A stretch of DNA of 64,000 nucleotides from Cystobacter fuscus (GTDB taxonomy: Bacteria > Myxococcota > Myxococcia > Myxococcales > Myxococcaceae): positions 1,488,001-1,552,000 of the forward strand of contig NZ_CP022098.1 in the NCBI RefSeq assembly GCF_002305875.1. The letters are read 5' to 3'. This document shows, piece after piece, positions 1-16,511 of the stretch. Each line of letters opens with the position of its first letter. Position 1 is the stretch's first letter. Below the pieces are notes generated by a model. It was not told where the DNA came from, did no database searches, and saw only the letters and a list, made by a program, of their open reading frames with translations. Both the position numbers and the translations under genes were made by a program.

Positions 1-339
1 TGGCTGGGACACGAAGGTCCGCGCGTCCGGGGAGATCTCCTCGAGCCCGCGCAGCGCCCTCATGTCGATCACGATGCCCCCCTCGCACAGGGACTGGCCC
101 CGCATCGAGTGACCCATGGCGCGCGAGGCCACGGGAAGGTCCCGCGCGTGGGCGTAGCGCACGATGCGCGCGACCTCCTCGGCGTCACGGGGCCGCGCGA
201 GGGCCGCTGGCATCCGGCGCACGGTGCGGCCAAAGTCCTGGGAGTAGCGCTCCAGGACCTCCGGCTCCTCCGTGACTTCTCCTTCGAGCAGGCGCTGAAG
301 ATCCCTGACCAGGCTGGTGCGCGTCTTCTCCGACATCAT
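1..339 (-). CDS. FAD-binding oxidoreductase, N-terminal part (truncated by window edge)
   Basis: 113 codons are visible; the rest lies beyond position 1. After a short helical start the protein reads R-P-R-D-A-E-E-V, then S-R-A-M-G-H-S-M-R-G-Q and G-G-I-V-I-D-M. This is the layout of the FAD_binding_4 (PCMH/berberine-bridge, cytokinin-dehydrogenase-like) fold, in which the G-H-S-x-x-G-Q loop contacts the flavin. The start codon overlaps the stop of the glycosyltransferase gene (ATGA at 336-339), so the two are translationally coupled and the oxidase belongs to the lanthipeptide operon. A tailoring oxidation of the peptide or its sugar is inferred from context only. Covalent flavin attachment cannot be judged because the usual second attachment residue is outside the window. 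Confidence 0.75.
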   Translation of the reverse strand, partial: MMSEKTRTSLVRDLQRLLEGEVTEEPEVLERYSQDFGRTVRRMPAALARPRDAEEVARIVRYAHARDLPVASRAMGHSMRGQSLCEGGIVIDMRALRGLEEISPDARTFVSQP

Positions 340-1562
340 GTCTCTCCACGAGCAGGCGTCTGCGTGGCGCTCGGGGGCTCGCGCCACACGGGCGCGCGCC
401 GTCGGCCCAGCTCCTCCAATAGGTGGGCGGCCCGCTCGTGGCCGCCGGCCCGCTGGAAGGTGCTCTGGAGCCGGGCCGCCGCGGTCCGCAGCTCCTCACG
501 CCCGAGCAGCTCCCGCACCATCTCCAGGAGGCGCGCGGGCTCGGCCTCGTTGTCCTCGAGGTGCAGGCCCGCCTGGACGCGCACACAGCGCTGGGTGATA
601 TCCGGCTGCTCGGCACCGCCCCCGCCGGGAATCAGCAGCAGCGGCAGCCCGTGGGTGAGCGCGCCCAGCACGGACGTCGTCGTCGCGTTGGAGACGACGG
701 CGCGCGCGTGGGGCAGGATGGCTCCCTGGGACACGTGGGGTCGGACGAAGAAGTTTTCGGGCACCTGCTCCACCTCGCGGTCCATGCGCCCGACGGCGGC
801 CACCACGCGCACGGGCTGCCCCGTGAGTGCCTCCACCAGGCTGCGCCAGAAGGCCCGCTTGTTGAAGGCGCGCCCGGGCTGCACGTAGAGCAGGGGCTCG
901 CCCGACTCCCGCGCCGCCGCCAGCCACGTGTCCAGCTCCGCGTCGGGAGGACCCGGGGGCTCCCAGAGACAATCCCCCACGAAGTGCACCTGGGGCGGCA
1001 GTGTCTCCACGTTCCCCTCCAGCTCGGGCACGCTGCGCAGCAGGAACAGATCTCCGACGAGGGGACTCTCGTGGATGTCGTGCGCGCGCCGCTCCATGCC
1101 GAGCATCTCGCGCACCAGCGCGTAGGCCAGGTAGAAGCCCCGGTAGCGCCGCACCAGCTTTTCACGCTGCTCGGCCTCCTCGGGAGGAGGTCCGTGGGGC
1201 CACAGGTAGCTGGCCATCCCCACGGTGGCCACGGGCAGGGCCTTGCGCTCCGCGACGACGTACGGTCCGAGCGCGAGCTGCTGCGTCACGAGGACGTCCG
1301 CGGGGAAGCGCTCCAGGGCCCGCTCGACGTGGCGGACCTGGCGCATCGTGTCCATGGGGTGGCCGGAGATCTCCACGAGGAAGCTGCTGCCATCCGGCTC
1401 GCCGCGGGGGATGCGCTGGAAGCCCGCGCGCTCCACCACCCCGGCCAGTTTGAGGTCCGTGACGAAGGCGATCTCATGCCCCCGACGCCGCAGGGCCTCG
1501 GCGATCCCCAGGGACGAGAACAGGAAGCCGAAGTTGTCGAGCGAGCAGAAGAGGTACCTCAT
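336..1562 (-). CDS. GT-B glycosyltransferase (MGT/UDP-glycosyltransferase type)
   Basis: 408 aa. The N-terminus (M-R-Y-L-F-C-S, then F-L-F-S-S-L-G-I-A-E-A-L-R-R-R-G-H-E) is the classic acceptor-side start of a GT1/MGT glycosyltransferase. The C-terminal half has the donor-side pattern H-V-S-Q-G-A-I-L-P-H, then A-L-T-H-G-L-P-L-L-L-I-P and a Gly-rich loop before an AEQPD motif. The usual H-G-G-x-G-T motif is altered to S-N-A-T-T-T-S, which is unusual and may change donor binding. The gene overlaps lanM (ATGA, 1559-1562) and the downstream oxidase, so it is almost certainly co-translated with them. Glycosylation of the lanthipeptide is inferred. Trp is one possible acceptor, since the class III lanthipeptide NAI-112 is glycosylated on Trp and this core contains one Trp. 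Confidence 0.85.
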   Translation of the reverse strand: MRYLFCSLDNFGFLFSSLGIAEALRRRGHEIAFVTDLKLAGVVERAGFQRIPRGEPDGSSFLVEISGHPMDTMRQVRHVERALERFPADVLVTQQLALGPYVVAERKALPVATVGMASYLWPHGPPPEEAEQREKLVRRYRGFYLAYALVREMLGMERRAHDIHESPLVGDLFLLRSVPELEGNVETLPPQVHFVGDCLWEPPGPPDAELDTWLAAARESGEPLLYVQPGRAFNKRAFWRSLVEALTGQPVRVVAAVGRMDREVEQVPENFFVRPHVSQGAILPHARAVVSNATTTSVLGALTHGLPLLLIPGGGGAEQPDITQRCVRVQAGLHLEDNEAEPARLLEMVRELLGREELRTAAARLQSTFQRAGGHERAAHLLEELGRRRAPVWREPPSATQTPARGET

Positions 1563-4500
1563 GGCTCACGGGCTCCGATGGGGCGCGGCGGCTCGAACGC
1601 GAGGAGGGATGGGATGCGCGATGGCTCGGCGAGCCGGAGCAGCGCGTAGCCGATGCCAGCCAGTCCCGTCATGAGGCCGGGGGTCTCCACGCCCGTGGGC
1701 ACGCCACAGAGCAGTCCCACCCGGTCGAAGCTGGCGACGATGGCCCCGGCGAGCCGGTCGCACTCCCGTTCCAGCTCGGAGTCCGCCAACGTCCGCGCGG
1801 CGAGCGTCAGCACCTCCAGGTTGCCGAGGTCGCCATGGCACAGCGAGTGGTTGCCGCCGAAGCCCTGGACCCGCGTGGTCTCCAACGCCACCCGGAGCTC
1901 TTCGCGCACCTCGGGTGTATCCAGGTAGGGCAGCGAGAGCAGCCGCGCCAACCCGATGCCTGGAGCTCCATGACAGAGCGTGGTCATGAAGCCTCCCTCC
2001 GCGGCGACGGCCCGGAGATCCCTCCAGTTGCGTCGCTCGGGGGAGAACTCGGCGCGCTCGTACGCGAGGGCCCGCCGCGCCGCCTCCTGGAAGCGGGGGT
2101 CGCCCGTCTCGGTGCCGAGCGCCAGCAGGAACCAGGCGATGCCCGCGGCTCCATGCGAGAAGCCTGTCAGGGGCAGAGGGCCCAGGGGGGTCACCCACCC
2201 GAGTCCCTTCTCCGTCTTGTGCGCCGCCGTCAACAGACGCTCCCCACACTGGCGGGCCAGCTCGAGCGCTTGGGGCGAGGGGCGGCAGCGGTGCAGCTCG
2301 AGCATGAGCGTGCCGCAGCCCGCGACTCCGGTGAAGACATCGAGGGACTTGTCCTCGGCGATGAGCATCCTCAGCCGCCGGGACAGCAGTGCTTCGGCCT
2401 CGTCCCACAGCTCGGGCTGGTTCCAGAGGGCCCCCAGGTGCACCAGGGAGTGGATGACGCCCAGATCTCCCGTGGCCCCCAGGTTGCGCGGGGAGAAGGA
2501 GCCACCCCCCGTTCTCCGGCGCACCGTGGACAGGGTCTCGCGCGCCAGCGCCGTGTGCCGTGGCTGGCCCGTGAGGTGCCCCAGATAGGCCAGGAAGAGC
2601 ATGATGCCGGACAGGCCGCTGTACAGGTCCACGTCCAGCGACGACAGCGTCCAGTAGCGCTCGCCCACCGGGGTGAGGCCGAGCCATGAGGCGTCCGACT
2701 GACCCCGGAAGGCCAGTGCGGCGAGCCGGTCTCCGATGGCCTCCGCCTTTTCCAACAGCGGTTCCCGACGGGGGGCCTCGTGCGACACACTGAGCGCGTA
2801 GCTCGGCATCCGCCCGCCCCCCGCCATCACCGACAGCGAGGTGAAGGAGGCCCGGATGAACCAGAGCTGCTGAGTCAGCCCCTCCTCCGACAGCCGCTGG
2901 ATGCGGTCGCGAGAGAGCTCCAGTCCCGTGCGGGGGAAGAACTCCGCCAGCCGCTGGCCCGAGCTGCTCCACACATCGCGCGAGCCCGGCCGGGAGCCGA
3001 AGAACGGCACGTCGAGGTGCCAGAGATCCTCGTGCTCGTGGGGAATCAGCGGTCGGGTGTAGGGGATCTGATCGATCGTGCCCCAGAGCCGATCGAGGAA
3101 CCGCTCCAGGTCCAAGCCGTCGCGCAGGTGGTCCGGGTGGCAGCTCTCCCGCTCCAGCAGGTGGTAGAAGTACGTGGGCCGCAGGATGACGCGCGTCTCG
3201 TCCGGGGCGAACCGCTCGAGGGGCCCGTCGGGGGCGAGGAGCGCTTCGCGGTGCGCGAGCAGCAGCCGGTACATCTGGGAGAAGCCCTCCTGGAAGGGCT
3301 CGTTGAAGTCCAGGAAGTTGACGTCCTCGCCCTTCAGGGTGGGCCGGTTGGCGCTGGCGGCGACCTCCACCCGCCGACGCGTCATCCGCATCTCGTCCGT
3401 GCCGGTCTGTTCCCAGACCTGGGCGGCGCGGGGGGTGAGCTGCCCGGCCGTGGAGCCGAGTGCGCTGAAGTCGATTCCCTCCGAGCCCTCTCCCGACCAG
3501 CCGCGCTGGGGCAGCAGTCCCATGCGCATCACCGAGTCATCCTTCGCGCGCTCGGCCAGATCTTCCGCGCCCCGCGTCTCCCCCACGGCGAAGTGCGCAT
3601 GGAAGAGGGACTCCAGGTCCACCAGGCAGGGGTGCTCCCCCACGGCGATGATGTTCTCGAAGTGGACGTCTGTCGCTTCGAGCGCGTACATCAAGGCCAG
3701 CCAGCTCCCCAGCCGCGCGTAGAAGCGCGCCACCTCCTCGCGCGTGGCGCAGGAGCGCTGCGCCACGAACTCCATCCATCCGTACGCCCCCCGGTCGATC
3801 GCGCCCACGGGGCGCAGGTGTGGTGCCTCGCTCCTCGCGTTGAGCCACCCGACCAGCTGGTGGAAGTGCACGTCCGCCGCCAGCGAGCGCGGTTTGTAGA
3901 CGACGCGTGCTCCCGAGGCGAACGTGAGGATGGCCACCGTGCGGCCCCCGCGGTGCGCATCGCCCTTGCCGAGCTCACAGGCGCTCAGCCGATCCAGTGC
4001 GAGTGGGAGGCCGAGGCTCGCGCCGAGTTCCCGGTGGTCCGCCGCCAGCCGCTCCAGCATCTCCAGGGAGGAGATGAACCAGTTGTCCGCGCAGATGACG
4101 AGCCTGCGAGCCAGGACGGGATATTCGGCGAAGAGGGCGAGTGCCACTTCCCGCTGGCGCAGGCTCTCGGTGAAGCCGCGGAACCGCTCCTCCGCGTTGT
4201 CTCCCTGGAGCCGTTCCTCCTCGCGGGCGACGTTCAACTCCAGCGCCAGCGTTCGCGTCAGTTGCGAGAGCAGCCGCTTGCAGAGGAAGGGCATGCACAG
4301 GGTCGCCGCGCTCTCTGGCTCGAAAGGGGCGTCCGGGTGCCGTGTCACCACCGCGCCCAGGGCTCGCACCAGGCGGGCCCGGCTCTCGTCGATGAGCGGC
4401 TCGGCGAGGACCAGGAAGGTGGGCGTGGCGAGAGGCGATCCGGGAATGGCCCGCGCGGGTGGCTCCGCCGCCACCGGGTGCGTGTAGAGGCGGGCCAGTC

Positions 4501-4828
4501 GCGTCTGCCATTCGGGAGGGGGGCCGAGCCGCGCCGCCAGCGTCTCCGTGGACTCGCCGAGTAGCTGGAGCAGTTGCTCCTCGGTCGCGCCGTCCAGCGC
4601 GAGCCGTTGCGCGAAGAGCTCGTCGCGGTCCAGGGGTGCTCGGGAGCGCCACCGGGCAAGTCGGCGGGTGGCCCGGGCCTTGTCCTTCCCGGCTTCGGCC
4701 GTTGTGCCAGGCGGTGGTGGAGGGCCCAGGTGCCGGACACGCTCCGACAAGGTCGTCCCCTTGTGCCAGCCCGGACCTTCCGGGTTCACTCCCTCCACGA
4801 CCTCAGACGCCTCGGGGCGCATCGTCAT
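1559..4828 (-). CDS. lanM: class II lanthipeptide synthetase LanM
   Basis: 1089 aa from the chosen ATG. A GTG at 4855 would add nine residues, but the ATG at 4828 has AAGGA ten bases upstream. LanM dehydrates Ser/Thr of the precursor by phosphorylation and elimination, then closes thioether rings onto Cys. The N-terminal dehydratase (DUF4135) shows G-D-x-H-R-G-G-R-x-V, V-Y-K-P-R-S-L and D-V-H-F-E-N-I-I followed by L-V-D-L-E-S-L-F. The C-terminal LanC-like cyclase keeps the zinc ligands, one Cys in C-H-G-A-P-G (about residue 950) and Cys-His in S-L-C-H-G-D (about residue 997), plus G-F-S-H-G-A-A-G. The length is normal for LanM and no catalytic motif looks damaged. The gene lies downstream of lanA and overlaps both neighbours. 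Confidence 0.96.
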   Translation of the reverse strand: MTMRPEASEVVEGVNPEGPGWHKGTTLSERVRHLGPPPPPGTTAEAGKDKARATRRLARWRSRAPLDRDELFAQRLALDGATEEQLLQLLGESTETLAARLGPPPEWQTRLARLYTHPVAAEPPARAIPGSPLATPTFLVLAEPLIDESRARLVRALGAVVTRHPDAPFEPESAATLCMPFLCKRLLSQLTRTLALELNVAREEERLQGDNAEERFRGFTESLRQREVALALFAEYPVLARRLVICADNWFISSLEMLERLAADHRELGASLGLPLALDRLSACELGKGDAHRGGRTVAILTFASGARVVYKPRSLAADVHFHQLVGWLNARSEAPHLRPVGAIDRGAYGWMEFVAQRSCATREEVARFYARLGSWLALMYALEATDVHFENIIAVGEHPCLVDLESLFHAHFAVGETRGAEDLAERAKDDSVMRMGLLPQRGWSGEGSEGIDFSALGSTAGQLTPRAAQVWEQTGTDEMRMTRRRVEVAASANRPTLKGEDVNFLDFNEPFQEGFSQMYRLLLAHREALLAPDGPLERFAPDETRVILRPTYFYHLLERESCHPDHLRDGLDLERFLDRLWGTIDQIPYTRPLIPHEHEDLWHLDVPFFGSRPGSRDVWSSSGQRLAEFFPRTGLELSRDRIQRLSEEGLTQQLWFIRASFTSLSVMAGGGRMPSYALSVSHEAPRREPLLEKAEAIGDRLAALAFRGQSDASWLGLTPVGERYWTLSSLDVDLYSGLSGIMLFLAYLGHLTGQPRHTALARETLSTVRRRTGGGSFSPRNLGATGDLGVIHSLVHLGALWNQPELWDEAEALLSRRLRMLIAEDKSLDVFTGVAGCGTLMLELHRCRPSPQALELARQCGERLLTAAHKTEKGLGWVTPLGPLPLTGFSHGAAGIAWFLLALGTETGDPRFQEAARRALAYERAEFSPERRNWRDLRAVAAEGGFMTTLCHGAPGIGLARLLSLPYLDTPEVREELRVALETTRVQGFGGNHSLCHGDLGNLEVLTLAARTLADSELERECDRLAGAIVASFDRVGLLCGVPTGVETPGLMTGLAGIGYALLRLAEPSRIPSLLAFEPPRPIGAREP

Positions 4829-5924
4829 CAAGCACGTATCCTTGCTGGGCGTCACTGTAGTGCAGCCAGCGGTGCAGGGTCTCCAGGTAGACCTTGGCCT
4901 CCAGCGGCCTGCCAGGTTGGTGGACGACCTTGAGGTGGCTCAGCCGCCGCAAGAAGAGGCTCAGGCCACGTCCGTTCAGCTCGCGCGCGATGCGGCTCAG
5001 TTCCTTCGGCCAGGACTCCGGCTGGCTTCGCTGCTGCATGTGGCCCACCCAGGCGAGGATCGCCTCTCGCTTGTCGGGCAATCCCAATCCCCGCTCGACG
5101 AGGTGTCCCAGCAGCGTCTCCCAGCGGGGCTGGCTCGAGCCGATGGGTGCTTGGATGGCGAACTCGAAGCCGACCTTCTCGCCCAGGGTCTCGCCCACGT
5201 CGATGTCCAGGGAGAGCTGGTCCGCCAGCTCCGGGAGTCGCCCGAGCGCCGCCTCCACCTCACCGGGCTGGCCGGGCCAGCCGATGCGCTCGAGATAAGA
5301 CAGCCACCGAGGCAGGCTCGCGCCCGACAGGCACAGGCGCAAGGCGGACGTGCCCCGGGGGAACATGACCCCCACCGAGTAGATCCGTGCCTCTGGGGGC
5401 AGCGCTTCGTAACAGGCGGCGAGCCGTCGCCGGGTGCTGGCGGGGAGCCTGTCGCCGAGCAGCAGGTCCAGGCCCCGCTCGGCGAATTCCCGCGTCTGGC
5501 GCACCGGGCGTGCGAAGTCCATGAAGACGCAGGGCTCGGGCACCTCTGGCGGCGGGTGGTCGAGGTCGAACTCGAGGAAGACATCCATCACGCCCGTGTT
5601 CAGCGCGCCACCAGGCTTCCTCCACTCCCGGCAGAAGTCCCCGAGTGCCCGCCAGGTGGGGTGGTCGCGTGCCACTTCAGGGAGCGTGGGCGGGGTGTCG
5701 CCAAGGCCGAGCAAGGCATCACAACTTCCGTCCGTCAGCAGCAGGCGCGGCAGCAGGTCCACTCGGGACGCAGGGGAGCCGAGACGGCACTCGAACTGGA
5801 AACCCAGCACGGGCGGCAGCATGCGTGCGATGCGGCGCATGTCCTCGCGCACTGCCTCCGAGGCGAGCCGGACATCGAGATGGGAGTCGACCAACCTGAG
5901 GTTTACTTCCATCGACTCGTGCAT
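4803..5924 (-). CDS. unrecognised 373-aa protein encoded between lanA and lanM
   Basis: I do not recognise a family with certainty. The protein is soluble, with no signal peptide or membrane segment. Visible landmarks are V-F-L-E-F-D-L-D (about residue 117), a basic/aromatic stretch L-S-Y-L-E-R-I-G-W-P-G in the middle, L-S-L-D-I-D-V-G, and near the C-terminus H-L-K-V-V followed by A-K-V-Y-L and H-R-W-L. The alternating strands and the late H-L-K ... A-K-V-Y-L pair suggest an alpha/beta enzyme domain. It starts just after the stem-loop that follows lanA, and its 3' end overlaps the lanM start by 26 bp, so it must be produced with LanM. A role as tailoring enzyme or LanM partner is inference from position alone. 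A second ATG at 5912 is an alternative start. Confidence 0.8.
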   Translation of the reverse strand: MHESMEVNLRLVDSHLDVRLASEAVREDMRRIARMLPPVLGFQFECRLGSPASRVDLLPRLLLTDGSCDALLGLGDTPPTLPEVARDHPTWRALGDFCREWRKPGGALNTGVMDVFLEFDLDHPPPEVPEPCVFMDFARPVRQTREFAERGLDLLLGDRLPASTRRRLAACYEALPPEARIYSVGVMFPRGTSALRLCLSGASLPRWLSYLERIGWPGQPGEVEAALGRLPELADQLSLDIDVGETLGEKVGFEFAIQAPIGSSQPRWETLLGHLVERGLGLPDKREAILAWVGHMQQRSQPESWPKELSRIARELNGRGLSLFLRRLSHLKVVHQPGRPLEAKVYLETLHRWLHYSDAQQGYVLDDDAPRGV

Positions 5925-5937
5925 GGTGGGACAGGTC

Positions 5938-5960
5938 CTCGAGGCGACTTCCGCCTCGAG
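5938..5960 (-). promoter_or_regulatory. intercistronic stem-loop after lanA
   Basis: A perfect 9-bp inverted repeat (CTCGAGGCG / CGCCTCGAG) with a 5-base loop lies 81 bases past the lanA stop codon and 13 bases before the next start codon. On the transcribed strand there is no T-run after it, so it is not a textbook intrinsic terminator. The likely Shine-Dalgarno GAGGA of the next gene overlaps the 3' arm. It may therefore stabilise the lanA message, partly stop transcription, or mask that ribosome site, each of which would give more precursor than enzyme. Confidence 0.55.
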
Positions 5961-6041
5961 AGGGTGGCGAGGCGGACTGGAAGACGGCTCAGCTCGCAGT
6001 CCGCTCGCCGGGGTTGTTCGTGGAGGGGGAATTACAAACGA

Positions 6042-6218
6042 CTAGCAGCTTTCCCAACAGCACGACGACACCTGCTTACCGCCAGACAGCAGGCTGTCCA
6101 GGGCCTCGTCAGAGAGCTCCACGATACCGGCCGGGTTGGCCGGCAGCTGAGCGCGCTCCTCCTCGGTCAGGGACAGACGGAAATCCTCATCCTTCCACGC
6201 CTGGATCGTCTTCTTCAT
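6042..6218 (-). CDS. lanA: class II lanthipeptide precursor peptide, 58 aa
   Basis: A short gene with AAGGAG seven bases before its ATG. The leader (residues 1-47) has the mersacidin/lichenicidin-type pattern: W-K-D-E-D-F-R-L-S-L, then N-P-A-G-I-V-E-L, then L-S-D-E-A-L-D-S-L-L-S-G-G. It ends in the double glycine cut by C39 peptidase exporters. The predicted core is K-Q-V-S-S-C-C-W-E-S-C, 11 residues with three Ser, three Cys and one Trp. Ser51 and Ser52 sit directly before Cys53 and Cys54, and Ser57 directly before Cys58. Any thioether rings must therefore be very small or must join distant residues. The gene sits between the exporter and the 373-aa gene in a single transcription direction. 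I find no second precursor in the cluster. Confidence 0.93.
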   Translation of the reverse strand: MKKTIQAWKDEDFRLSLTEEERAQLPANPAGIVELSDEALDSLLSGGKQVSSCCWESC

Positions 6219-6241
6219 GTGTTGCTCCTTGGTTCTCCTTG

Positions 6242-6258
6242 CCTGGAACCACTCCAGG
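6242..6258 (-). promoter_or_regulatory. small stem-loop in the lanA 5' leader
   Basis: A 6-bp perfect inverted repeat (CCTGGA / TCCAGG) with a 5-base loop lies between the exporter stop and the lanA ribosome site, about 25 bases before the lanA ATG. It could be an RNA processing or stabilising element that separates lanA from the upstream exporter message. There is no T-run. The evidence is only the sequence symmetry. Confidence 0.3.
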
Positions 6259-6275
6259 AAGGGAGCTTCGCGGCG

Positions 6276-8546
6276 TCAGGCCCTTGCTCCTGGCTCCTGC
6301 GCCAGATCCGTTTCGCCCCGGGCCTCGCGTGGAGGCGTGGGGGTCGCATCCGCTGCCTGGCCACGGGCCAGGGCGGCATAAAGTCCATTGCGCTTCATGA
6401 GCGTGTCATGCGTTCCCTGCTCGACGAGCCGTCCCTGATCCAGCACGAGGATGAGGTCCGCGCTGCGCACGGTGCTCAACCGGTGCGCGATGATGATGCG
6501 TGTGCATGACATGATACCCAGGTTCGCGTCCACCTGCGCTTCCGTGGCGGTATCCAGATGGCTGGTGGCCTCGTCGAGCAGCAGCAGGGTCGGGCGCGAC
6601 GCCAGTGCGCGCGCCAGCGCCAGCCGTTGACGCTGACCGCCGGACAGCCCCGCTCCACCCTCGCCGATCCACGTCTCGTGGCGCATCGGCATCCGCTGGA
6701 CTTCCTGCTCCAGCGCCGCGAGGCGGAGGGCCTCCTCCACCTGGCCCAGTGCGATCCCGGGTGCGTTGAGCGAGACATTTTCCCGGAGCGAGCCGCTGAA
6801 GAGCAGCGGCTCCTGCATCACCACGCCGAACTGGGCGCGCACCTGGCGCACGTCCAGCTCCCGCAGCGGCAGACCGTCATAGAGGATGCGTCCCTCGGTG
6901 GGCTCGAGGAGTCCGAGCAGGAGGCTGCCCAGGGTGCTCTTGCCGCAGCCGCTGCGACCCACCACCGCCACCTTCTGTCCGGGCTCGATGGTGAAGGAGA
7001 GGCCCGAGAGCACCGGGGCGCTCCCCCTGCCATAGCGGAAGCCCACGTTCTCCAGGTGGATGTGCCCGCGCAGCCGCGGAGTGGGCCGGGTCGTCACCGG
7101 CTGGGGCTCTGGCTCGGCCTCGAGCACATCCAGGATGCGCGAGATGTGGGCCCCCGCCAGGTGCAACTGCTGCCCGGTGGTGACCAGCTGCGCCAGCGGC
7201 GTGAGGACGGCGGCGGCGATGGCGTTCAGCGCCAGCATCGTGCCCAGGCCCATCTTCCCGTCGAGCACCTGGATTGCTCCGAGCCACAGCAGCGCCAGCG
7301 GCGCGAAGGTGCGCAGGGCGTTGAGCAGCGCGTTGATGAAGGCCGTCAGATGGCCCCGCTCCAGCGACGCGTCGAGCTGCCGGTGGAACAGTGACGACCA
7401 GAAGCGCAGCGTCAGCTCCTCCGCCGCGGAGGCCTTGACCAGGGCCATTCCCTTGAAGGCCTGGACGGTGAAGCTCTGGAACTCGGCCTCGGTGGTGAGG
7501 CCACGGTTGAGCAGCTCGCGCATGCGGCCGGCCGTCATGAGCACCAGCATCAACTGGAGCACCCCCAGGCCGAACACCACCGCGCCGAAGAGCGGCGCCT
7601 GGAAGGAGAGGATGGCGAGGTAGGTGACCATCAGCGAGCCATCGAGCACGGTGGTCAGCGTCTGGTTGGTCAGCACCTCCCGGATCATCCCCGCGCTGCT
7701 CAGCCGCGCGAGCAGATCCCCGCTGGTGCGCTGCATGAAGAAGCGGAAGGGCAGCCGCAGCAGGTGGCCCAGCATTCCGAGCAACAGATGTTCATCGAAG
7801 CGTCCCTTGAGGGACACGAGCAGCACGTTGCGCAGGTAGCCCGTCACCGCCTGGGAGAGGGTGACGGCCACCATGCCCACGCCCAGCAGGGCCATCATGC
7901 TGAAGCCGCGCAGCGGCAGGACATGGTCCACCAGCACCTGGGTCATCAACGGCACTGCCAGCCCCAGCACCTGCAGGAGCAGCGAGGCGGCCAGGACCTG
8001 GAGCGCCAGCCCCTTCACGGCCCGGTTGCCCAGCAGCGGGCGCAGGAACGTGCTCCACGGGGAGGGCAGGGGTCCTCCGGTCATGAACTCCGGACCCGGC
8101 TCGAACGTCAGCACCACGCCCGTGAAGCCCTTGCTGAACTCCTGGGCGGACACGTGGCGCCGCCCCACCACCGGATCGAAGAGCTCCGCGCCCTTCGGCG
8201 ACCACTGTTCGATGACGACGAAGTGGTTGAAGTTCCAGTGGGCGATCGCCGGCAGCCGGATCTGCCCGAGGTGCTCGAGGTCGGTGGAGAAGACCTTGGC
8301 CCGGAGTCCCAGCTCGCGCGCCGCATCCACGAACATGCGGGGCCGGACTCCGTCCCGGGTCACGCCCAGCCGATCCTGGCACTCCGCCACGGAGGTGGGC
8401 CGTCCGGCGTGGGCGAGGATGCGCGCCAGACACGCCGCGCCACAGTCGGTCGCCGTGGCCTGGAGCACCAGCGGCGGGCGGGGAGGAAAGAGCCGCCGCC
8501 ACAAGCTGCTCGCAATAGAGGAGGGAGCGCGTCCAGATCCGGTCAT
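6276..8546 (-). CDS. lanT: peptidase-containing ABC exporter (C39 leader peptidase plus ATPase)
   Basis: 756 aa with three parts. Residues about 25-160 form a C39 protease with Cys35 in T-D-C-G-A-A-C-L, a His in N-H-F-V-V-I-E and an Asp 16 residues later in F-D-P-V-V-G-R. This is the complete triad of double-glycine leader peptidases. A membrane domain with about six helices follows (residues about 170-450). The C-terminal ATPase has Walker A G-R-S-G-C-G-K-S-T, signature L-S-G-G-Q-R-Q-R and Walker B L-L-L-L-D-E-A-T-S-H-L-D. It should cut the precursor after Gly-Gly and export the modified peptide across the inner membrane. It follows the HlyD-like gene with almost no gap, GAAGGGG serving as ribosome site, and precedes lanA. 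Confidence 0.95.
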   Translation of the reverse strand: MTGSGRAPSSIASSLWRRLFPPRPPLVLQATATDCGAACLARILAHAGRPTSVAECQDRLGVTRDGVRPRMFVDAARELGLRAKVFSTDLEHLGQIRLPAIAHWNFNHFVVIEQWSPKGAELFDPVVGRRHVSAQEFSKGFTGVVLTFEPGPEFMTGGPLPSPWSTFLRPLLGNRAVKGLALQVLAASLLLQVLGLAVPLMTQVLVDHVLPLRGFSMMALLGVGMVAVTLSQAVTGYLRNVLLVSLKGRFDEHLLLGMLGHLLRLPFRFFMQRTSGDLLARLSSAGMIREVLTNQTLTTVLDGSLMVTYLAILSFQAPLFGAVVFGLGVLQLMLVLMTAGRMRELLNRGLTTEAEFQSFTVQAFKGMALVKASAAEELTLRFWSSLFHRQLDASLERGHLTAFINALLNALRTFAPLALLWLGAIQVLDGKMGLGTMLALNAIAAAVLTPLAQLVTTGQQLHLAGAHISRILDVLEAEPEPQPVTTRPTPRLRGHIHLENVGFRYGRGSAPVLSGLSFTIEPGQKVAVVGRSGCGKSTLGSLLLGLLEPTEGRILYDGLPLRELDVRQVRAQFGVVMQEPLLFSGSLRENVSLNAPGIALGQVEEALRLAALEQEVQRMPMRHETWIGEGGAGLSGGQRQRLALARALASRPTLLLLDEATSHLDTATEAQVDANLGIMSCTRIIIAHRLSTVRSADLILVLDQGRLVEQGTHDTLMKRNGLYAALARGQAADATPTPPREARGETDLAQEPGARA

Positions 8547-8549
8547 GGC

Positions 8550-9167
8550 TCACCCCTTCAGGAAACGCGCGAGGATGGGGAGAGACGTGAGAAGGCGTTG
8601 CTGGCCCACCTCGACTTCGACACGAAAGGTGCTGCCGAGCCAATCCGTCGCGGAGAGCCCCTCCGTCCCAGGCGGCGCGAACACGGCGAAGGCGCACGCG
8701 GTGGGTCCGTTGGGACCTTGTCTGGAGTCGCCCTTCAGCCCGAAGCGCTCCAGCGCCGCCTCCGGACTCACCACGGACTGCTCCACCTCCTTGATATGGC
8801 TCTCCAGGCGAACGCCCTTTCCACTCACGTCCACCAGGAGTCGCTGGCCGGCCGCCAGGCGCGTACGTGCCTCGGGTGGAAAGAAGGCCACGAGCATCAG
8901 CCCTTCTCCGCCCGCTCCAGGCGATGGCGCCGCCGGCACGACGATGGCCGTGCCCGACACATGTGCCGGAACGGGAACCGCCACGAGTGCCACGCCGAAA
9001 GCCACACTCGCCAGCGAGGTGGCCCAGAGCAGCGCGAGGGTCCGGGACGAGGTGTATTGGGATGCACGGAAGTGCTCGCGGGCCTGGCGGTGGGCCGCGA
9101 TGGCTTCGGGGCGGTAGACAACCTGGTTCGCGGCCGACGTTCCGTTCTCAGGTGCGCCCTCGGCCAT
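8550..9167 (-). CDS. HlyD-like membrane-fusion adaptor, short form
   Basis: 205 aa from the ATG, which has GAAAGGGG about ten bases upstream; an in-frame GTG at 9194 has no comparable site. There is one transmembrane helix near residue 45 after a basic cytoplasmic stretch. The remainder is periplasmic and ends in a strand pattern like the beta-barrel part of HlyD/MFP adaptors (L-A-A-G-Q-R-L-L-V-D-V, later F-R-V-E-V-E-V-G-Q-Q-R-L-L). The usual lipoyl halves and long coiled coil are absent, so it is a compact adaptor. It is the first gene of the lanthipeptide operon, directly before the exporter, so it probably links the exporter to an outer-membrane channel. No outer-membrane channel gene is visible in the window. 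Confidence 0.75.
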   Translation of the reverse strand: MAEGAPENGTSAANQVVYRPEAIAAHRQAREHFRASQYTSSRTLALLWATSLASVAFGVALVAVPVPAHVSGTAIVVPAAPSPGAGGEGLMLVAFFPPEARTRLAAGQRLLVDVSGKGVRLESHIKEVEQSVVSPEAALERFGLKGDSRQGPNGPTACAFAVFAPPGTEGLSATDWLGSTFRVEVEVGQQRLLTSLPILARFLKG

Positions 9168-9484
9168 GTACGAAGCACCCCTTTCATGTTTCACGACCGG
9201 AACGTCACGGTGCTTCCGTGGAGATTAAGTCAAAAATCGGAAACTGAGAAGAGCACTCCGTGCTCTTGACCGGGCTGGAACCGTTACGGCGTGTGGCCCC
9301 CCCTGGTGCCTCCGCCTCGGGCACATCTCACGAGGTTCCACGGCGTCTTCGCTCCAGGCGCCAGACCGCGGCCATTTTTGCTCCCCCAAGCAGGTGTGGA
9401 GGCGAGGGGGGAGCCCCAGGCATCGAAGCCATCTTTCCGGGCCCGCCGGCCTCCTGGGGCCGGTGGGGCGGGACGCCAGTGACT
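9168..9484 (-). promoter_or_regulatory. upstream region of the lanthipeptide operon
   Basis: 317 bases without a gene, between the S9 peptidase stop and the adaptor start, with both genes reading leftward. On the minus strand there is a TTGACT hexamer about 55 bases before the adaptor ATG, which could be a -35 element. No convincing -10 follows, which is common in GC-rich bacteria. A perfect palindrome (9249-9267) lies just upstream of that hexamer. The remaining bases up to 9484 show no supported feature. Confidence 0.35.
9249..9267. promoter_or_regulatory. perfect palindrome AAGAGCAC-TCC-GTGCTCTT
   Basis: Two 8-base arms are separated by 3 bases, with no mismatch. It lies about 80 bases before the adaptor start codon and 17 bases upstream of the TTGACT element. 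This position suits an operator for a dimeric regulator of the lanthipeptide operon. It could instead end the S9 peptidase transcript, since a T-rich stretch (TTTTTG) follows on the minus strand after 13 bases. The short loop and late T-run make a terminator less convincing. Confidence 0.45.
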
Positions 9485-11419
9485 TCAGTTCACCGGGGTC
9501 GGGCCGCTGTCCCTCAGGTGCGCGTTCAGGAAGCCGAGCATCCGCGAGTAGGCCTCCACCTCGTTCTTCTTCTTGGTGAAGCCGTGGCCCTCGTCTGGGA
9601 AGATGACGTACTCCACCGGGATGCCGTTCTTCTTCACCGCCTGCACGATTTCATCCGACTCGGGCTGGATGACGCGCGGATCATTGGCGCCCTGTAGGAC
9701 GAGCAGTGGCTTGGAGATCTTCTCCGCGTGGAAGAGGGGTGAGATGTCGCGCAGCATCTGCTCCTGCTTCGCCGGGTCGCCGATCTCCTTGTAGAGGGCC
9801 TCACGCTGGCTCTCCCACCAGGGCGGGATGCTCTGGAGCGTGCGCAGCCAGTTGGAGACACCGAAGATGTCGATGCCCGCCTTGAAGGCATCCGGGTGGA
9901 AGGCGAGCGCGGCCAGCGTCATGTAGCCACCGTAGCTGCCACCGGCGATGCCGATGCGCTCGGCGTCCACGTAGGGCAGACTGGCCAGGTACTTCCGGGC
10001 CTCGACGCAGTCCAGCAGCGGCTCGTGGCCGTGCTTCTGGTCATCCGCGGCGAAGAAGCTCTTGCCATAGCCGGAGCTGCCGCGGTTGTTGATGCCCAGC
10101 ACGACGTAGCCGTGGTTGACGAGGTATTGGATGACCGGGGAGTAGCCCTTGCGCGTCTGCCCCCCGGGGCCGCCGTGCACCCAGACAATGGCGGGTGCCT
10201 TGGCGTCGGCGGTGGCCTGATGCGGTTTGAAGAGGATGTTGGGAATCTCCATCCCGTCGAAGGACTTGAAGCGCACCACCTGGGCCTCGACGAGATCCTC
10301 CGGGTCCATCTGCTTGTTCCTCGCGTCGGTGAGACGGCTGACCTTCTTCGTGCCGAAGTCGTAGACGAAGAGGTTCGACGGGGAACGATCCCCATTGTGG
10401 TAGAAGGCCATCCGCTTCTCGCTGTCCGAGATGCGCACCGAGGTGATGTCCCCCGCGGGCAGCTGCGGCAGCTCCAGGAGCTTGCCTGTCTTCTGATCAT
10501 GCACGCGGATGACGGTGCGGCCGTCCTCGTTGATGGCGGTGACGCGGAAGCCGCCCTTGCGCGAGAAGTACGTGTACATCACGTCCCAGTCGGCGCGCTC
10601 CACCTCCTCCATCACTCCGGTCGTCAGCGTGTAGCGGGCCACGCGCTTGAACTCGGAGCCCTGGTTCGTGAGGAAGTAGAGGGCGCTGGAGTTCGGATCG
10701 AAAGAGCTCGCCTGGAAGAACGCGTCGCCCTGGTGCGGGGTGATGTGCTTGAGTTCCTTCTTCTCCACGTCGTAGAGGTGGATGTCCGCGTCGTTGGTGG
10801 TCCGCACCTTGTTGAAGGCGATCCACCTTCCATCGGGCGAGACCGCCTCGAAGGAGAGACCGGTGTCGTTCTGGTAGACGAGCGTGCGCGCATACGTCTT
10901 CGCGTCGTAGCGGTAGAGGTCGAAGAACCGCGCGTCGCGCTCGTTGGTGAGGACGTAGAAGGCCGAGTCGTCATCGCTCCAGCTCACGAACATGGCCTTC
11001 AGCTTGTCGCCGGGCGAGAGGTCGCGCTCCTTGCCATCCGGAGTGCGCACGAAGAGGTGGTTGGCTTCGTTGCCACCCTGGTCGCGCGTGAAGAGGATGC
11101 GCTCGTCCTTGGGGAAGAAGCTCACGGCGTAGGTGGAGTCCGTCTTCGAGTGGGTGAGCGCCTTCGCCTTCCCGCCACTGAGGGGCAGGGTGTATGCGTT
11201 GAAGATGCCACTCTCGTTGGAGGAAAAGAGGACGCGCTTCTCGTCCGGCGAGAAGGAGGCGCCGGAGAGCTTCGTCGTCGTCATGAACTGCTCGACGGTG
11301 TACTGCTTGGAGGGCCGGGGGACAGCCGGGGCCGGTGTCGCGTTGGGCGCAGCGAGTGCGAGGGCGGGCACGAGCGTGGCCGCGGCCAGTACTCGCACGA
11401 GGGTGGACCGGAACTGCAT
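9485..11419 (-). CDS. exported S9-family prolyl oligopeptidase / acylaminoacyl peptidase
   Basis: 644 aa. I use the ATG at 11419 because it has GGAG five bases upstream and opens a clear signal peptide (M-Q-F-R-S-T-L-V-R-V-L-A-A-A, A-L-A-A cleavage region). The N-terminal half is a WD40-like beta propeller with repeated S-P-D-x-x-R-x-x-F/A-x-x units. The C-terminal alpha/beta hydrolase holds H-G-G-P-G-G near its start, the nucleophile in G-G-S-Y-G-G-Y-M, the Asp in G-A-N-D-P-R-V and the His in D-E-G-H-G-F. Peptidases of this family release dipeptides or acylated residues from short peptides in the periplasm. The gene is separate from the lanthipeptide operon, though a role in peptide turnover nearby cannot be excluded. 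Confidence 0.93.
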   Translation of the reverse strand: MQFRSTLVRVLAAATLVPALALAAPNATPAPAVPRPSKQYTVEQFMTTTKLSGASFSPDEKRVLFSSNESGIFNAYTLPLSGGKAKALTHSKTDSTYAVSFFPKDERILFTRDQGGNEANHLFVRTPDGKERDLSPGDKLKAMFVSWSDDDSAFYVLTNERDARFFDLYRYDAKTYARTLVYQNDTGLSFEAVSPDGRWIAFNKVRTTNDADIHLYDVEKKELKHITPHQGDAFFQASSFDPNSSALYFLTNQGSEFKRVARYTLTTGVMEEVERADWDVMYTYFSRKGGFRVTAINEDGRTVIRVHDQKTGKLLELPQLPAGDITSVRISDSEKRMAFYHNGDRSPSNLFVYDFGTKKVSRLTDARNKQMDPEDLVEAQVVRFKSFDGMEIPNILFKPHQATADAKAPAIVWVHGGPGGQTRKGYSPVIQYLVNHGYVVLGINNRGSSGYGKSFFAADDQKHGHEPLLDCVEARKYLASLPYVDAERIGIAGGSYGGYMTLAALAFHPDAFKAGIDIFGVSNWLRTLQSIPPWWESQREALYKEIGDPAKQEQMLRDISPLFHAEKISKPLLVLQGANDPRVIQPESDEIVQAVKKNGIPVEYVIFPDEGHGFTKKKNEVEAYSRMLGFLNAHLRDSGPTPVN

Positions 11420-11679
11420 GCATTCTCCGCGTTGGTGGGAAGTGGGGTGACCAACACCGTACGAAACACCCTCCTCCTGATTTCCCGCCAGTCCCCCCCT
11501 GAGAATCTTCCTGCCTTCCGGTCTTCGACGCTGCGGCGATAGGCCAGCGCCACTCGGGCAGCCGGCACCGGCTCGAAACCAGGGAAGTGCGGGGATGAAC
11601 AGGGCCCCAGTGTATTCCCTATCCCGTAGGCGATAAATCCCTGATGGTTTCATTCACTACAAACCAGGAGTTTGCAATC

Positions 11680-11868
11680 ATGGACAGACTGCGTGCGGCG
11701 GAGGTCTATGTGGCCGTGGTCGAGGCCGGCAGCTTCAGTGCCGCGGCACGGGCGCTGGTGATGAACTCGGGGGCGCTGAGGGGGCTGCCGACGCCGTGCA
11801 CCCAGGCCAACGCGCGTTCGAATAAAACGAAACCCTTCCGTAAGGATGACCGCCCGGCCGGCATCTAA
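11680..11868 (+). pseudogene. truncated LysR-family regulator, N-terminal stump
   Basis: The reading frame begins like a LysR helix-turn-helix (M-D-R-L-R-A-A-E-V-Y-V-A-V-V-E-A-G-S-F-S-A-A-A-R-A-L) with an AGGAG ribosome site. It loses similarity after about 29 residues, before the recognition helix is complete, and runs on for 33 unrelated residues to a stop. The whole effector-binding domain is missing. It lies just before a sigma factor/membrane protein pair, so it probably marks the edge of an insertion or deletion. Confidence 0.7.
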
Positions 11869-11891
11869 TCAGCTTGAACACGGGACGGATC

Positions 11892-12407
11892 ATGGACGCG
11901 CGAGAGGATCAGGACAGGGCTTTCGTCGACTGGCTGGCGCCGCACCTGGCGACCTTGCGCCGGATCGCCCGCGCATTCGCGCCCCCGGAAGACCAATACG
12001 ACCTGATGCAGGAGCTGATGCTGGCGGTCTGGAACGCCCGCCCGAGCTTCCAGGCGCGCAGCGCCGCCACGACCTTCGTCTACCGCGTGGCCCACAACAC
12101 GGCCCTGACCTGGAAGCGCGGCGAGACCCGCCGTCGCCGCCGACGCGAGGCAATCGAGGTCGAGATGCTGTGGCGGGCCGAACAGGATCGCGCCGAGCCG
12201 GAGGCAGGCCTGCTGGAGCGGCTCTACGCGGCGATCCGCGTGCTGCCGCCGCTGGACCGGTCGTTGATCCTGCTGTCGCTGGACGGGCTGGCCTACGCCG
12301 AGATCGCTCGTCTGCACGGCCTTTCCGAAACCAATGTCGGGGCGCGCCTGACCCGTATCCGCCGGCGCGTCACCAGCCTCGTGGAGGGCGCCGACGATGG
12401 ATTTTGA
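11892..12407 (+). CDS. ECF-type RNA polymerase sigma factor
   Basis: 171 aa. Region 2 is visible in D-L-M-Q-E-L-M-L-A-V-W-N-A-R-P-S-F and the nearby A-A-T-T-F-V-Y-R-V-A-H-N. Region 4 is Y-A-E-I-A-R-L-H-G-L-S-E-T-N-V-G-A-R-L-T-R-I-R. There is no sigma-3 domain, as expected for extracytoplasmic-function factors. I chose the ATG at 11892 over a TTG at 11874 because it matches the usual family start. The downstream gene begins inside its last codons in another frame (11-bp overlap), so its product is probably the regulator of this factor. The pair looks like sigma/membrane-partner pairs of alphaproteobacteria; acquisition from outside is an inference. Confidence 0.9.
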   Translation: MDAREDQDRAFVDWLAPHLATLRRIARAFAPPEDQYDLMQELMLAVWNARPSFQARSAATTFVYRVAHNTALTWKRGETRRRRRREAIEVEMLWRAEQDRAEPEAGLLERLYAAIRVLPPLDRSLILLSLDGLAYAEIARLHGLSETNVGARLTRIRRRVTSLVEGADDGF

Positions 12408-12996
12408 CAAGCTCGAAGCCGCCTGGCGCTCGCCGGCCAACACGCCCGACGACCGCGCCCAGGCCTATCTGATGGAGGAATTGATGCGCACGCTGAAGGC
12501 CCGCCGTCGCCGCGAACTCCTGTTCTACGCGATTCCGGCGACGGCCATGACGATCTTCACGGCCATCACGGTCCAGGCGATCGCCGCCGGGCGGATGGAT
12601 GTCGGCCGGGAGTGGGCGTCGCTGGTCATGCTGGCGATGTGCTGGCTGGTGCTGGCGGCGGTGCTGGTCGTCGGCTTCTTGCTGCGAAGTCGAGGTAGAT
12701 CCGGAGGCTCTCCGGTGCGGGACACCCTCACCACCATGCTGGTCGCCAATCGCCGGGCCCGCGCCAACGTCAAGATCTTCTGGATGATGCTGCCGGTGTT
12801 CCTCGCGCCGATGCTGGTGGGCGTCCAACAGCTGCGCGAGGTCGGCAAGGCCACCGACCGCGACGCCTGGCAGATGCTGTTCGTATTCGGCGTGGCGCTG
12901 GTCGCCAGCGTCGGCTGGAACACGGCGCGGTACGTCTGGGTGCTGAAGCCCGAGCAGCGGCGACTGGAGGCGTTGCTGGCGGAATACGAAGCCTGA
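12397..12996 (+). CDS. four-helix inner-membrane protein, putative anti-sigma partner
   Basis: 199 aa. A charged cytoplasmic N-terminus of about 40 residues (with M-E-E-L-M-R-T-L-K-A-R-R-R-R) is followed by hydrophobic helices at about 41-63, 73-95, 127-145 and 157-180, and a short charged tail. There is no zinc-binding HxxxCxxC motif, so it is not a ZAS-type anti-sigma. Its start overlaps the end of the sigma gene by 11 bp, which points to coupled expression and a direct functional link. Sequestering the sigma factor at the membrane is the likely role but is inferred only from this arrangement. Confidence 0.75.
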   Translation: MDFDKLEAAWRSPANTPDDRAQAYLMEELMRTLKARRRRELLFYAIPATAMTIFTAITVQAIAAGRMDVGREWASLVMLAMCWLVLAAVLVVGFLLRSRGRSGGSPVRDTLTTMLVANRRARANVKIFWMMLPVFLAPMLVGVQQLREVGKATDRDAWQMLFVFGVALVASVGWNTARYVWVLKPEQRRLEALLAEYEA

Positions 12997-14318: not shown

Positions 14319-14425
14319 CCACGCGAGTTGCCTTGAAATGCCCACGGTATCACCTTGGATCAAAAGGGTCAGCCAAGCGCCCGGCACATCATCCCGACCA
14401 TCACCGAGGAATCGGCCATCCAAGG

Positions 14426-14780
14426 CCATGCCCCGGAGCCCTCCACGAAGAGGAGACTCCGGGGCGGGGCGAGGCCTCAGCTCCAGTCGGAGTGGATGAA
14501 GCCGGCGTCGGGCCGGTCGCGGCGCTGGTAGGTGTGGGCGCCCAAGGCGTCGCGCTGGGCCTGGGTGAGGTTCTGCGGCAGCTCCGGGCTGCGGTAGCTG
14601 TCGAAGTAGGCCAGGCTCGCGCCGAGCACCGGCACGGGGATGCCCAGCCGCGTGGCCACTCCCACGGTGCGCCGCCACGCGGGCGCCATCTTCCCGAGCA
14701 CCGGTGCCAGCCTTTCGGCCACCATCACCTTGAGAGAGGACAGGTTGCACGCGTCGAGCGCTCCGGCGATGGACGGTACG
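14426..14780 (-). pseudogene. duplicated gnd 3' end with internal deletion
   Basis: Bases 14426-14728 match 16210-16511 (gnd 3' end and its downstream hairpin) nearly base for base, at a constant offset of 1784. Bases 14729-14780 then match 16797-16848, so 284-285 bases of gnd were lost between the two blocks. Differences are few, for example C-to-G and G-to-A in the G-A-H-T-Y region. The translated remnant reads [16 protein letters not shown] and then [13 protein letters not shown] to the original Gnd C-terminus. It has no start or promoter of its own. The two copies flank the 16.1-14.8 kb gene cassette as direct repeats. Confidence 0.9.
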
Positions 14781-16205: not shown

Positions 16206-16209
16206 CAGC

Positions 16210-16511
16210 CCATGCCCCGGAGCCCTCCACGAAGAGGAGACTCCGGGGCGGGGCGAGGCCTCAGCTCCAGTCGGAGTGGATGAAGCCGGCGTCGGGCCGG
16301 TCGCGGCGCTGGTAGGTGTGGGCGCCGAAGGCGTCACGCTGGGCCTGGGTGAGGTTCTGCGGCAGCTCCGGGCTGCGGTAGCTGTCGAAGTAGGCCAGGC
16401 TCGCGCCGAGCACCGGCACGGGGATGCCCAGCCGCGTGGCCACCCCCACGGTGCGCCGCCACGCGGGCGCCATCTTCCCGAGCACCGGCGCCAGCCCGTC
16501 GGCCACCATCA
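16210..16511 (-). repeat. direct repeat, gnd copy (partner of 14426-14728)
   Basis: This is the intact-gene copy of a roughly 302-base direct repeat that covers the last codons of gnd plus its downstream hairpin. The two copies bracket a cassette of about 1.4 kb with three genes. On the left side of each copy (downstream of gnd) the homology ends sharply at CCATG, where the two sites continue into unrelated sequence: the tRNA remnant here, and the 148-aa lipoprotein upstream region at the other copy. The arrangement suggests duplication during insertion at the end of gnd. Confidence 0.85.
16215..16248 (-). terminator. stem-loop after gnd
   Basis: Arms CCCCGGAG and CTCCGGGG pair perfectly, with a second inner CTCC/GGAG pairing, starting 12 bases beyond the gnd stop. 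No T-run follows, so it may act as a transcript-end stabiliser or a weak terminator. The same hairpin is preserved in the duplicated copy at 14431-14464. Confidence 0.5.

Follow-up and report, generated by a model that had tools for sequence, protein, structure and literature searches.

A Myxobacterial Class II Lanthipeptide Operon with a Predicted ABBA-Fold Tryptophan Prenyltransferase

The window analysed here is a stretch of 64,000 nucleotides from Cystobacter fuscus. It carries seven minus-strand genes with small gaps between them, in the order HlyD-like protein, C39-ABC exporter, lanthipeptide precursor, predicted prenyltransferase, LanM, glycosyltransferase, and flavin oxidase. The precursor gene (6042-6218, minus strand) encodes 58 amino acids. 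Its translation is MKKTIQAWKDEDFRLSLTEEERAQLPANPAGIVELSDEALDSLLSGG / KQVSSCCWESC with the stop codon TAG, and an AAGGAG-like ribosome site is found 5' of the ATG. Residues 1-47 form the leader (6078-6218) and residues 48-58 the core (6045-6077), both on the minus strand. The core ends in the motif S-C-x-W-x-S-C (SCCWESC, residues 52-58; 6045-6065, minus strand), which was defined by the alignment of 11 precursors.

This open reading frame (ORF) is a real gene and encodes a class II lanthipeptide precursor with a mersacidin/lichenicidin-type leader, as a preliminary description of the window had proposed. Besides its homologues and their alignment, the assignment is based on the match to NCBIfam TIGR03898, the mersacidin/lichenicidin family (E = 5e-19, 68 bits), which is above the curated cut-off of 23.5 bits. 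The precursor gene of Hyalangium versicolor is 85-88% identical to that of the window. Over the 47 leader codons, 14 of the codon changes between the two are synonymous and 3 are not, indicating that the gene is under purifying selection. The earlier statement that such a gene would easily be missed is doubtful, since the family is annotated under its own name in public records. The core had been described as 11 residues long behind a leader ending in Gly-Gly. It is indeed very short, with the composition given then (3 Ser, 3 Cys, and 1 Trp in 11 residues), and the double Gly is present; its length, however, is either 11 or 12 residues. The homologues LTDEALDVLVGG and LTDEVLEVASGG have the usual 12-position double-Gly spacing, with the Gly-Gly one residue closer to Leu-Ser/Thr than in LSDEALDSLLSGG of the window. 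Since the double Gly of these standard-spacing relatives is shifted by one position towards the N-terminus, the cleavage register is uncertain by one residue. Judged from these sequences, the leader may be cut after GG, leaving the 11-residue core, or after SG, leaving a 12-residue core, GKQVSSCCWESC.

The LanM gene (1559-4855, minus strand) encodes a class II synthetase of 1098 amino acids with dehydratase and cyclase domains (PF13575, PF05147; TIGR03897, 960 bits). The motifs VHFEN, LVDLE, SHGAAGI, LCHGAPG, and SLCHG are all found in it; its start codon is uncertain, a GTG within the overlap with the prenyltransferase gene. A leader-bearing precursor (TIGR03898) thus occurs with a LanM that has dehydratase and LanC-like cyclase domains, the genetic hallmarks of a class II lanthipeptide. 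The C39 peptidase/ABC exporter (6276-8546, minus strand; 756 amino acids; PF03412, PF00664, PF00005) has the motifs DCGAAC and HFVVI and the Walker motifs. With these family matches and the expected motifs in both, LanM and the exporter are intact, in agreement with the preliminary description. The HlyD-like protein (8550-9194, minus strand; 214 amino acids) has no Pfam or NCBIfam match and is named as membrane-fusion-like for its position beside the exporter and its one hydrophobic segment. At 336-1562 (minus strand) lies a gene for an MGT/EryCIII-like glycosyltransferase of 408 amino acids (PF06722; TIGR01426 below its cut-off), and the suspicion of a sugar voiced earlier, rightly raised, thereby has a candidate enzyme. 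Positions 1-342 (minus strand) hold the N-terminal part of a FAD_binding_4 flavin oxidase (PF01565 in its homologues). This gene runs past the window edge to about G000:C1:1486949 (464-479 amino acids; gene model L100:12949-14388), and its product is 69% identical to the oxidase of the Hyalangium cluster.

The gene for an S9 peptidase (9485-11653) was also weighed as a cluster member and rejected, as related clusters have no homologue of it. Elsewhere in the window, positions 14423-14722 and 16207-16506 form a 300-nt direct repeat, 98% identical and 1.78 kb apart. The repeated sequence is the 3' terminus of a gene resembling 6-phosphogluconate dehydrogenase, and the arrangement suggests that the gene end was duplicated with a segment inserted in between. 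The same genome has a further LanM cluster (L045, G000:C1:9086000-9104500, at 9078-12529), with a precursor ending in GGGILEPTSAYCTPCPPKYCY, of a kind often found in the family, and with no prenyltransferase nearby.

The ORF at 4803-5924 (minus strand; 373 amino acids) was overlooked in the preliminary description, as was the flavin oxidase crossing the window edge. It has no significant match in Pfam or NCBIfam, PF11991 (Trp_DMAT) included. An AlphaFold2 model built on an alignment of 19 homologues (mean pLDDT 92.0, pTM 0.91) has ten barrel strands in five pairs, as in the ABBA (PT-barrel) fold. When the model was compared with the PDB by Foldseek, ranks 1-44 were all ABBA prenyltransferases and the matches beyond them were at chance level; the best match is 5-dimethylallyltryptophan synthase, a Trp prenyltransferase. 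VIA-align gives Z-scores of 18.1 to CymD (298 of 373 residues, 4.0 A) and 17.7 to MpnD, both of which are indole enzymes. No sequence similarity was found when the family was compared by hhalign with myxobacterial PF11991 homologues, and a sequence-profile search with the prenyltransferase alignment against PDB sequences gave a chance match only. Since there is no profile similarity to the PF11991 proteins, it is the predicted fold that sets the enzyme class. On this basis the ORF is predicted to encode an ABBA-fold aromatic (indole/Trp) prenyltransferase outside the sequence family PF11991. Among the 19 homologues aligned, R196 is invariant, and R47, K332, K344, and Y346 are at least 90% conserved. 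The conserved residues E45, R47, E118, R196, K332, K344, and Y346, most of them charged, are placed on the barrel strands of the model, which is what a putative diphosphate and indole site would need. Note that PF11991 also occurs in fused form in the bacterial family: at L093 (646-2562) Trp_DMAT is joined to a haem-oxygenase-like iron redox domain (PF14518), and similar open frames of about 600 amino acids exist in other genomes.

Homologues of the precursor were sought in 145 genomes of the order, and their neighbourhoods were fetched. Similar cores were found in ten further genomes of one family, in ten further clusters or cluster pieces. The eleven distinct precursors of this family share the kernel S-C-x-W-x-S-C (or SCxCWSGC, carried by two G083 precursors). 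The Hyalangium core is ASEQLDSCCWSSCNSAEQF; others are VAEDVEVSSCGWDSCN, AAGVNASCGWSSCNRTN, and NAAASCDWCSCVAAEEAAE, four distinct cores have the form (V/L)xAASCDWCSC, and one tandem pair of precursors has the cores PSCVCWSGCGSEEVPGET and PSCMCWSGCGSDETQKEN. All eleven aligned precursors keep the Trp, two Ser, and two Cys, the last Cys among them. The leading Ser of the SS pair in the window varies, as does the second residue of its CC pair, and the spacer and tail residues diverge around the invariant Trp. The three Ser and three Cys previously taken as the key feature are therefore not what the family conserves. The interest of the locus rests less on an odd Cys/Ser count than on a conserved seven-gene pathway with a tailoring enzyme that evades sequence profiles.

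The other genes are conserved to different degrees in the ten related clusters. A prenyltransferase-like ORF is present in eight of them; one contig stops short of it and one cluster is truly without it. The flavin oxidase is also found in eight. Seven clusters have the HlyD-like protein and seven the glycosyltransferase (45-59% identical), the latter being absent from the Hyalangium and G083 clusters. One locus, L035 (genome G074), has the core AAGVNASCGWSSCNRTN with LanM and a glycosyltransferase at 4402-9215 and neither a prenyltransferase nor a C39 exporter nearby; the cleavage site of its precursor is HGA instead of GG. As the LanM tree groups the window, Hyalangium, and L035 with full support, the absence of the prenyltransferase at L035 is probably a loss. 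It also implies that prenylation is not universal even among close relatives.

The association between the prenyltransferase and the Trp motif extends across the order, where linkage was defined as a precursor match within 15 kb of a prenyltransferase homologue. Ten of the 118 precursor matches in the order are linked in this way, at distances of 98-3317 bases, and all ten have the Trp motif. The other 108 are unlinked, 81 of them in genomes that have a prenyltransferase copy elsewhere, and only two carry the motif: L035 and the precursor of G062, where the contig ends. No prenyltransferase homologue is near any of the 106 same-leader matches without linkage or motif, and among the matches listed the remaining unlinked cores have no Trp. 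In nine loci the prenyltransferase is co-inherited with the precursor and LanM, down to 31% identity.

Based on these observations, the operon probably makes a short, tailored class II lanthipeptide whose core Trp55 is prenylated by the ABBA-fold enzyme before further tailoring and export. The product could instead be a plain short class II lanthipeptide, with the ABBA-fold protein acting on another molecule or serving as a non-catalytic partner. L035, which has the same precursor type and LanM without the prenyltransferase, is in line with this. Against it stand the position of the enzyme within the operon and its co-inheritance in nine loci, its tracking of Trp-motif precursors only, and the occurrence of its homologues beside unrelated Trp-bearing RiPP precursors, and we consider it improbable. 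Prenylation of the peptide at a residue other than Trp (a free Cys, a Ser, or the N-terminus) is very improbable. Cyanobactin ABBA prenyltransferases do modify Ser, Thr, Tyr, His, Arg, and Trp (PMC12715784), and the third core Cys of the window may be unbridged. However, the Trp is invariant while the third Cys is not conserved, and a linked precursor outside the LanM clusters, ending in AQELSNTQAWQ, keeps its Trp without any Cys.

That precursor is one of two Trp-bearing RiPP types (...AQELSNTQAWQ and ...SCTWGANCGK) that adjoin prenyltransferase homologues without a LanM. In the C. fuscus genome it belongs to a second RiPP-like cluster without LanM (L046, G000:C1:5778500-5797500, at 7467-10973), where the 39-residue precursor MSNETLSEQPANLTELSDEALDDLISGEAQELSNTQAWQ lies next to a prenyltransferase paralogue (8208-9344), a DUF2378 protein, and a squalene-hopene-cyclase-like protein (9804-10973) in which DADSTA replaces the DxDDTA of hopene cyclases. 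Relatives of this cluster exist at L085 and in other genomes. Two other genomes have a prenyltransferase homologue beside a precursor ending in AEGSCTWGANCGK, and here too a cyclase homologue is present. The idea that the LanM clusters include a terpene cyclase was considered and rejected, as tblastn found no homologue of the L046 cyclase in L034-L044. Further afield, prenyltransferase homologues on cyanobacterial and Azospirillum plasmids are accompanied by LanM or a radical SAM enzyme and by precursors with Nif11/NHLP-type leaders; two of these precursors, in Pseudanabaena and Azospirillum, end in KW. Leaders and partner enzymes differ among the homologue loci, yet a Trp repeatedly lies within the last residues.

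The gene organisation at such loci is varied. At L077 (9883-12411) and L078 (12573-14978), precursors of the type ELTDEQLLQMAEGSCTWGANCGK occur near two homologues of the prenyltransferase and one of the cyclase. At L079 (8714-10813), L080 (7716-10088), and L076 (424-2511), in several genomes, proteins of 695-790 amino acids have the prenyltransferase domain as their C-terminal half, and one of them has a weak hopene-cyclase match in its N-terminal part, as in prenyltransferase-cyclase fusions. The plasmid-borne homologues are at L132 (5800-10761), L133 (8491-10033), and L134 (2209-10032), from Pseudanabaena, Acaryochloris, and Azospirillum. That of Pseudanabaena is inside a 597-residue protein annotated as a 2OG-Fe(II) oxygenase with a LanM nearby, and that of Acaryochloris is annotated as two separate ORFs and has a radical SAM C-methyltransferase nearby.

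For the window's own pathway, we infer the chemical steps and their order, as well as the prenyl donor, the ring topology, and the role of the product, from gene presence, conservation, linkage, and predicted fold. LanM would bind the mersacidin-type leader, dehydrate core Ser residues, and add Cys to the dehydroalanines, most likely forming one or two thioethers. The ABBA-fold enzyme (4803-5924) would prenylate the indole of Trp55, probably before the leader is removed. In some lineages the flavin oxidase and the glycosyltransferase would probably then oxidise and glycosylate the product. A FAD_binding_4 oxidase beside a Trp prenyltransferase recalls the oxidation of prenylated aromatics in the ergot and cannabinoid pathways. 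Finally, the C39 exporter would cut the leader after the double Gly and secrete the product, most likely an antimicrobial or signalling peptide. Transfer of the prenyl group with the leader still attached is expected because the cyanobacterial enzyme MppC is leader-dependent and prefers the macrocyclised peptide (PMC12715784).

If neighbouring residues are not joined, the conserved residues allow only Ser52-Cys58 (outer) and Cys53-Ser57 (inner, Cys first). By this arithmetic the simplest full ring pattern would be a small bicycle whose apex is the Trp; the SCxCWSGC of the G083 precursors fits nested rings only with shifted spacing. The retention of two Ser and two Cys in every core is what the use of both pairs would predict. 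The earlier view that no known lanthipeptide ring pattern could apply is a reasonable conjecture. A single thioether ring (e.g., Ser52-Cys58), with the other Cys residues free or in a disulfide as the preliminary description had suggested, is a strong competitor whose chances fall just short of even. There are three Cys in the window core and in the G104-type cores (SCDWCSC), and the published drawing of MppE, which has a heptapeptide core, shows a thioether macrocycle (PMC12715784). The prenylation of Trp55 would be unaffected by either pattern. The neutral monoisotopic mass computed for KQVSSCCWESC is 1258.478 unmodified, 1222.457 after loss of two waters, and 1204.446 after loss of three; two water losses combined with a C5, C10, C15, or C20 prenyl group would give 1290.520, 1358.582, 1426.645, or 1494.707, to which an N-terminal Gly would add 57.021 and a hexose 162.053.

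The glycosyltransferase might be a self-protection enzyme or act on a metabolite other than the peptide. Its similarity, below the cut-off, is to macrolide MGT and to self-immunity enzymes of the OleI type, and the Hyalangium and G083 clusters do without it. Its start, on the other hand, overlaps the LanM stop (ATGA) and it is kept in seven of ten clusters, which leaves this alternative somewhat unlikely. In the most elaborate form of the proposal, the product would be a seven-residue bicycle with nested, opposite lanthionines (Ser52-Cys58 and Cys53-Ser57) and an added sugar, in which the flavin oxidase further oxidises or cyclises the prenyl group of the Trp. This would be a meroterpenoid glyco-lanthipeptide of an undescribed ring type, made with a prenyltransferase family that serves several RiPP classes. 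So specific a combination is distinctly unlikely to be right in every part.

As standard profile libraries miss this prenyltransferase family, similar clusters are probably annotated as plain lanthipeptides. Six core strings of the related precursors did not occur in the literature searched, and no title or abstract describing such a cluster was found in literature on lanthipeptides, prenyltransferases, and myxobacteria. A survey of LanT includes Cystobacter fuscus LanT loci, and the parts of it consulted gave no description of the window precursor (PMC3951391). The locus would carry prenylated lanthipeptides, just recognised in cyanobacteria, into myxobacteria with a different, compact leader. 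The conserved minimal core S-C-x-W-x-S-C would lend itself to expression and variation, and one could directly test how a single enzyme family recognises a Trp that follows unrelated leaders.

Among known systems, the mersacidin/lichenicidin family (TIGR03898) has in common with the window the leader IxAWKDxxFRxxLsxeERaxlPxNPAG..ELtDeaL..GG, LanM, and the C39 exporter. Unlike mersacidin-type peptides, the window has a shorter core of 11-12 residues with S-C-x-W-x-S-C, and these clusters contain a predicted prenyltransferase and a flavin oxidase. The predicted enzyme shares its whole-chain fold with CymD, MpnD, PriB, IptA, and 5-/6-DMATS (Z 17-18), which are only about 10-14% identical to it and act on small molecules. 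The cyanobactin enzymes PagF, PatF, LimF, and KgpF also have the ABBA fold, with a weaker structural match; they are leader-independent and belong to other cluster types. NctPC (Hubrich et al. 2024) is described in a review as a Trp prenyltransferase of the ABBA fold that modifies a RiPP and has little similarity to the cyanobactin enzymes; it is fused to a terpene cyclase and adds a cyclised C20 group (PMC13290415). In contrast, the window enzyme is a single domain of 373 residues in a cluster without a terpene cyclase, while its paralogue in the same genome adjoins one. A further parallel is MppE/MppM/MppC of Moorena producens PAL, where an ABBA prenyltransferase likewise occurs in a LanM cluster and the core bears Trp, although MppC is compared here by its description and the window enzyme by its predicted fold. 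MppC geranylates one Trp of a heptapeptide core (PMC12715784). The cyanobacterial system has a long Nif11-type leader and two core Trp; in the window the leader is of mersacidin type, and a glycosyltransferase and a flavin oxidase are encoded as well. Since prenylated lanthipeptides have already been described in cyanobacteria (MppC, PMC12715784), the locus would extend a known class rather than found one.
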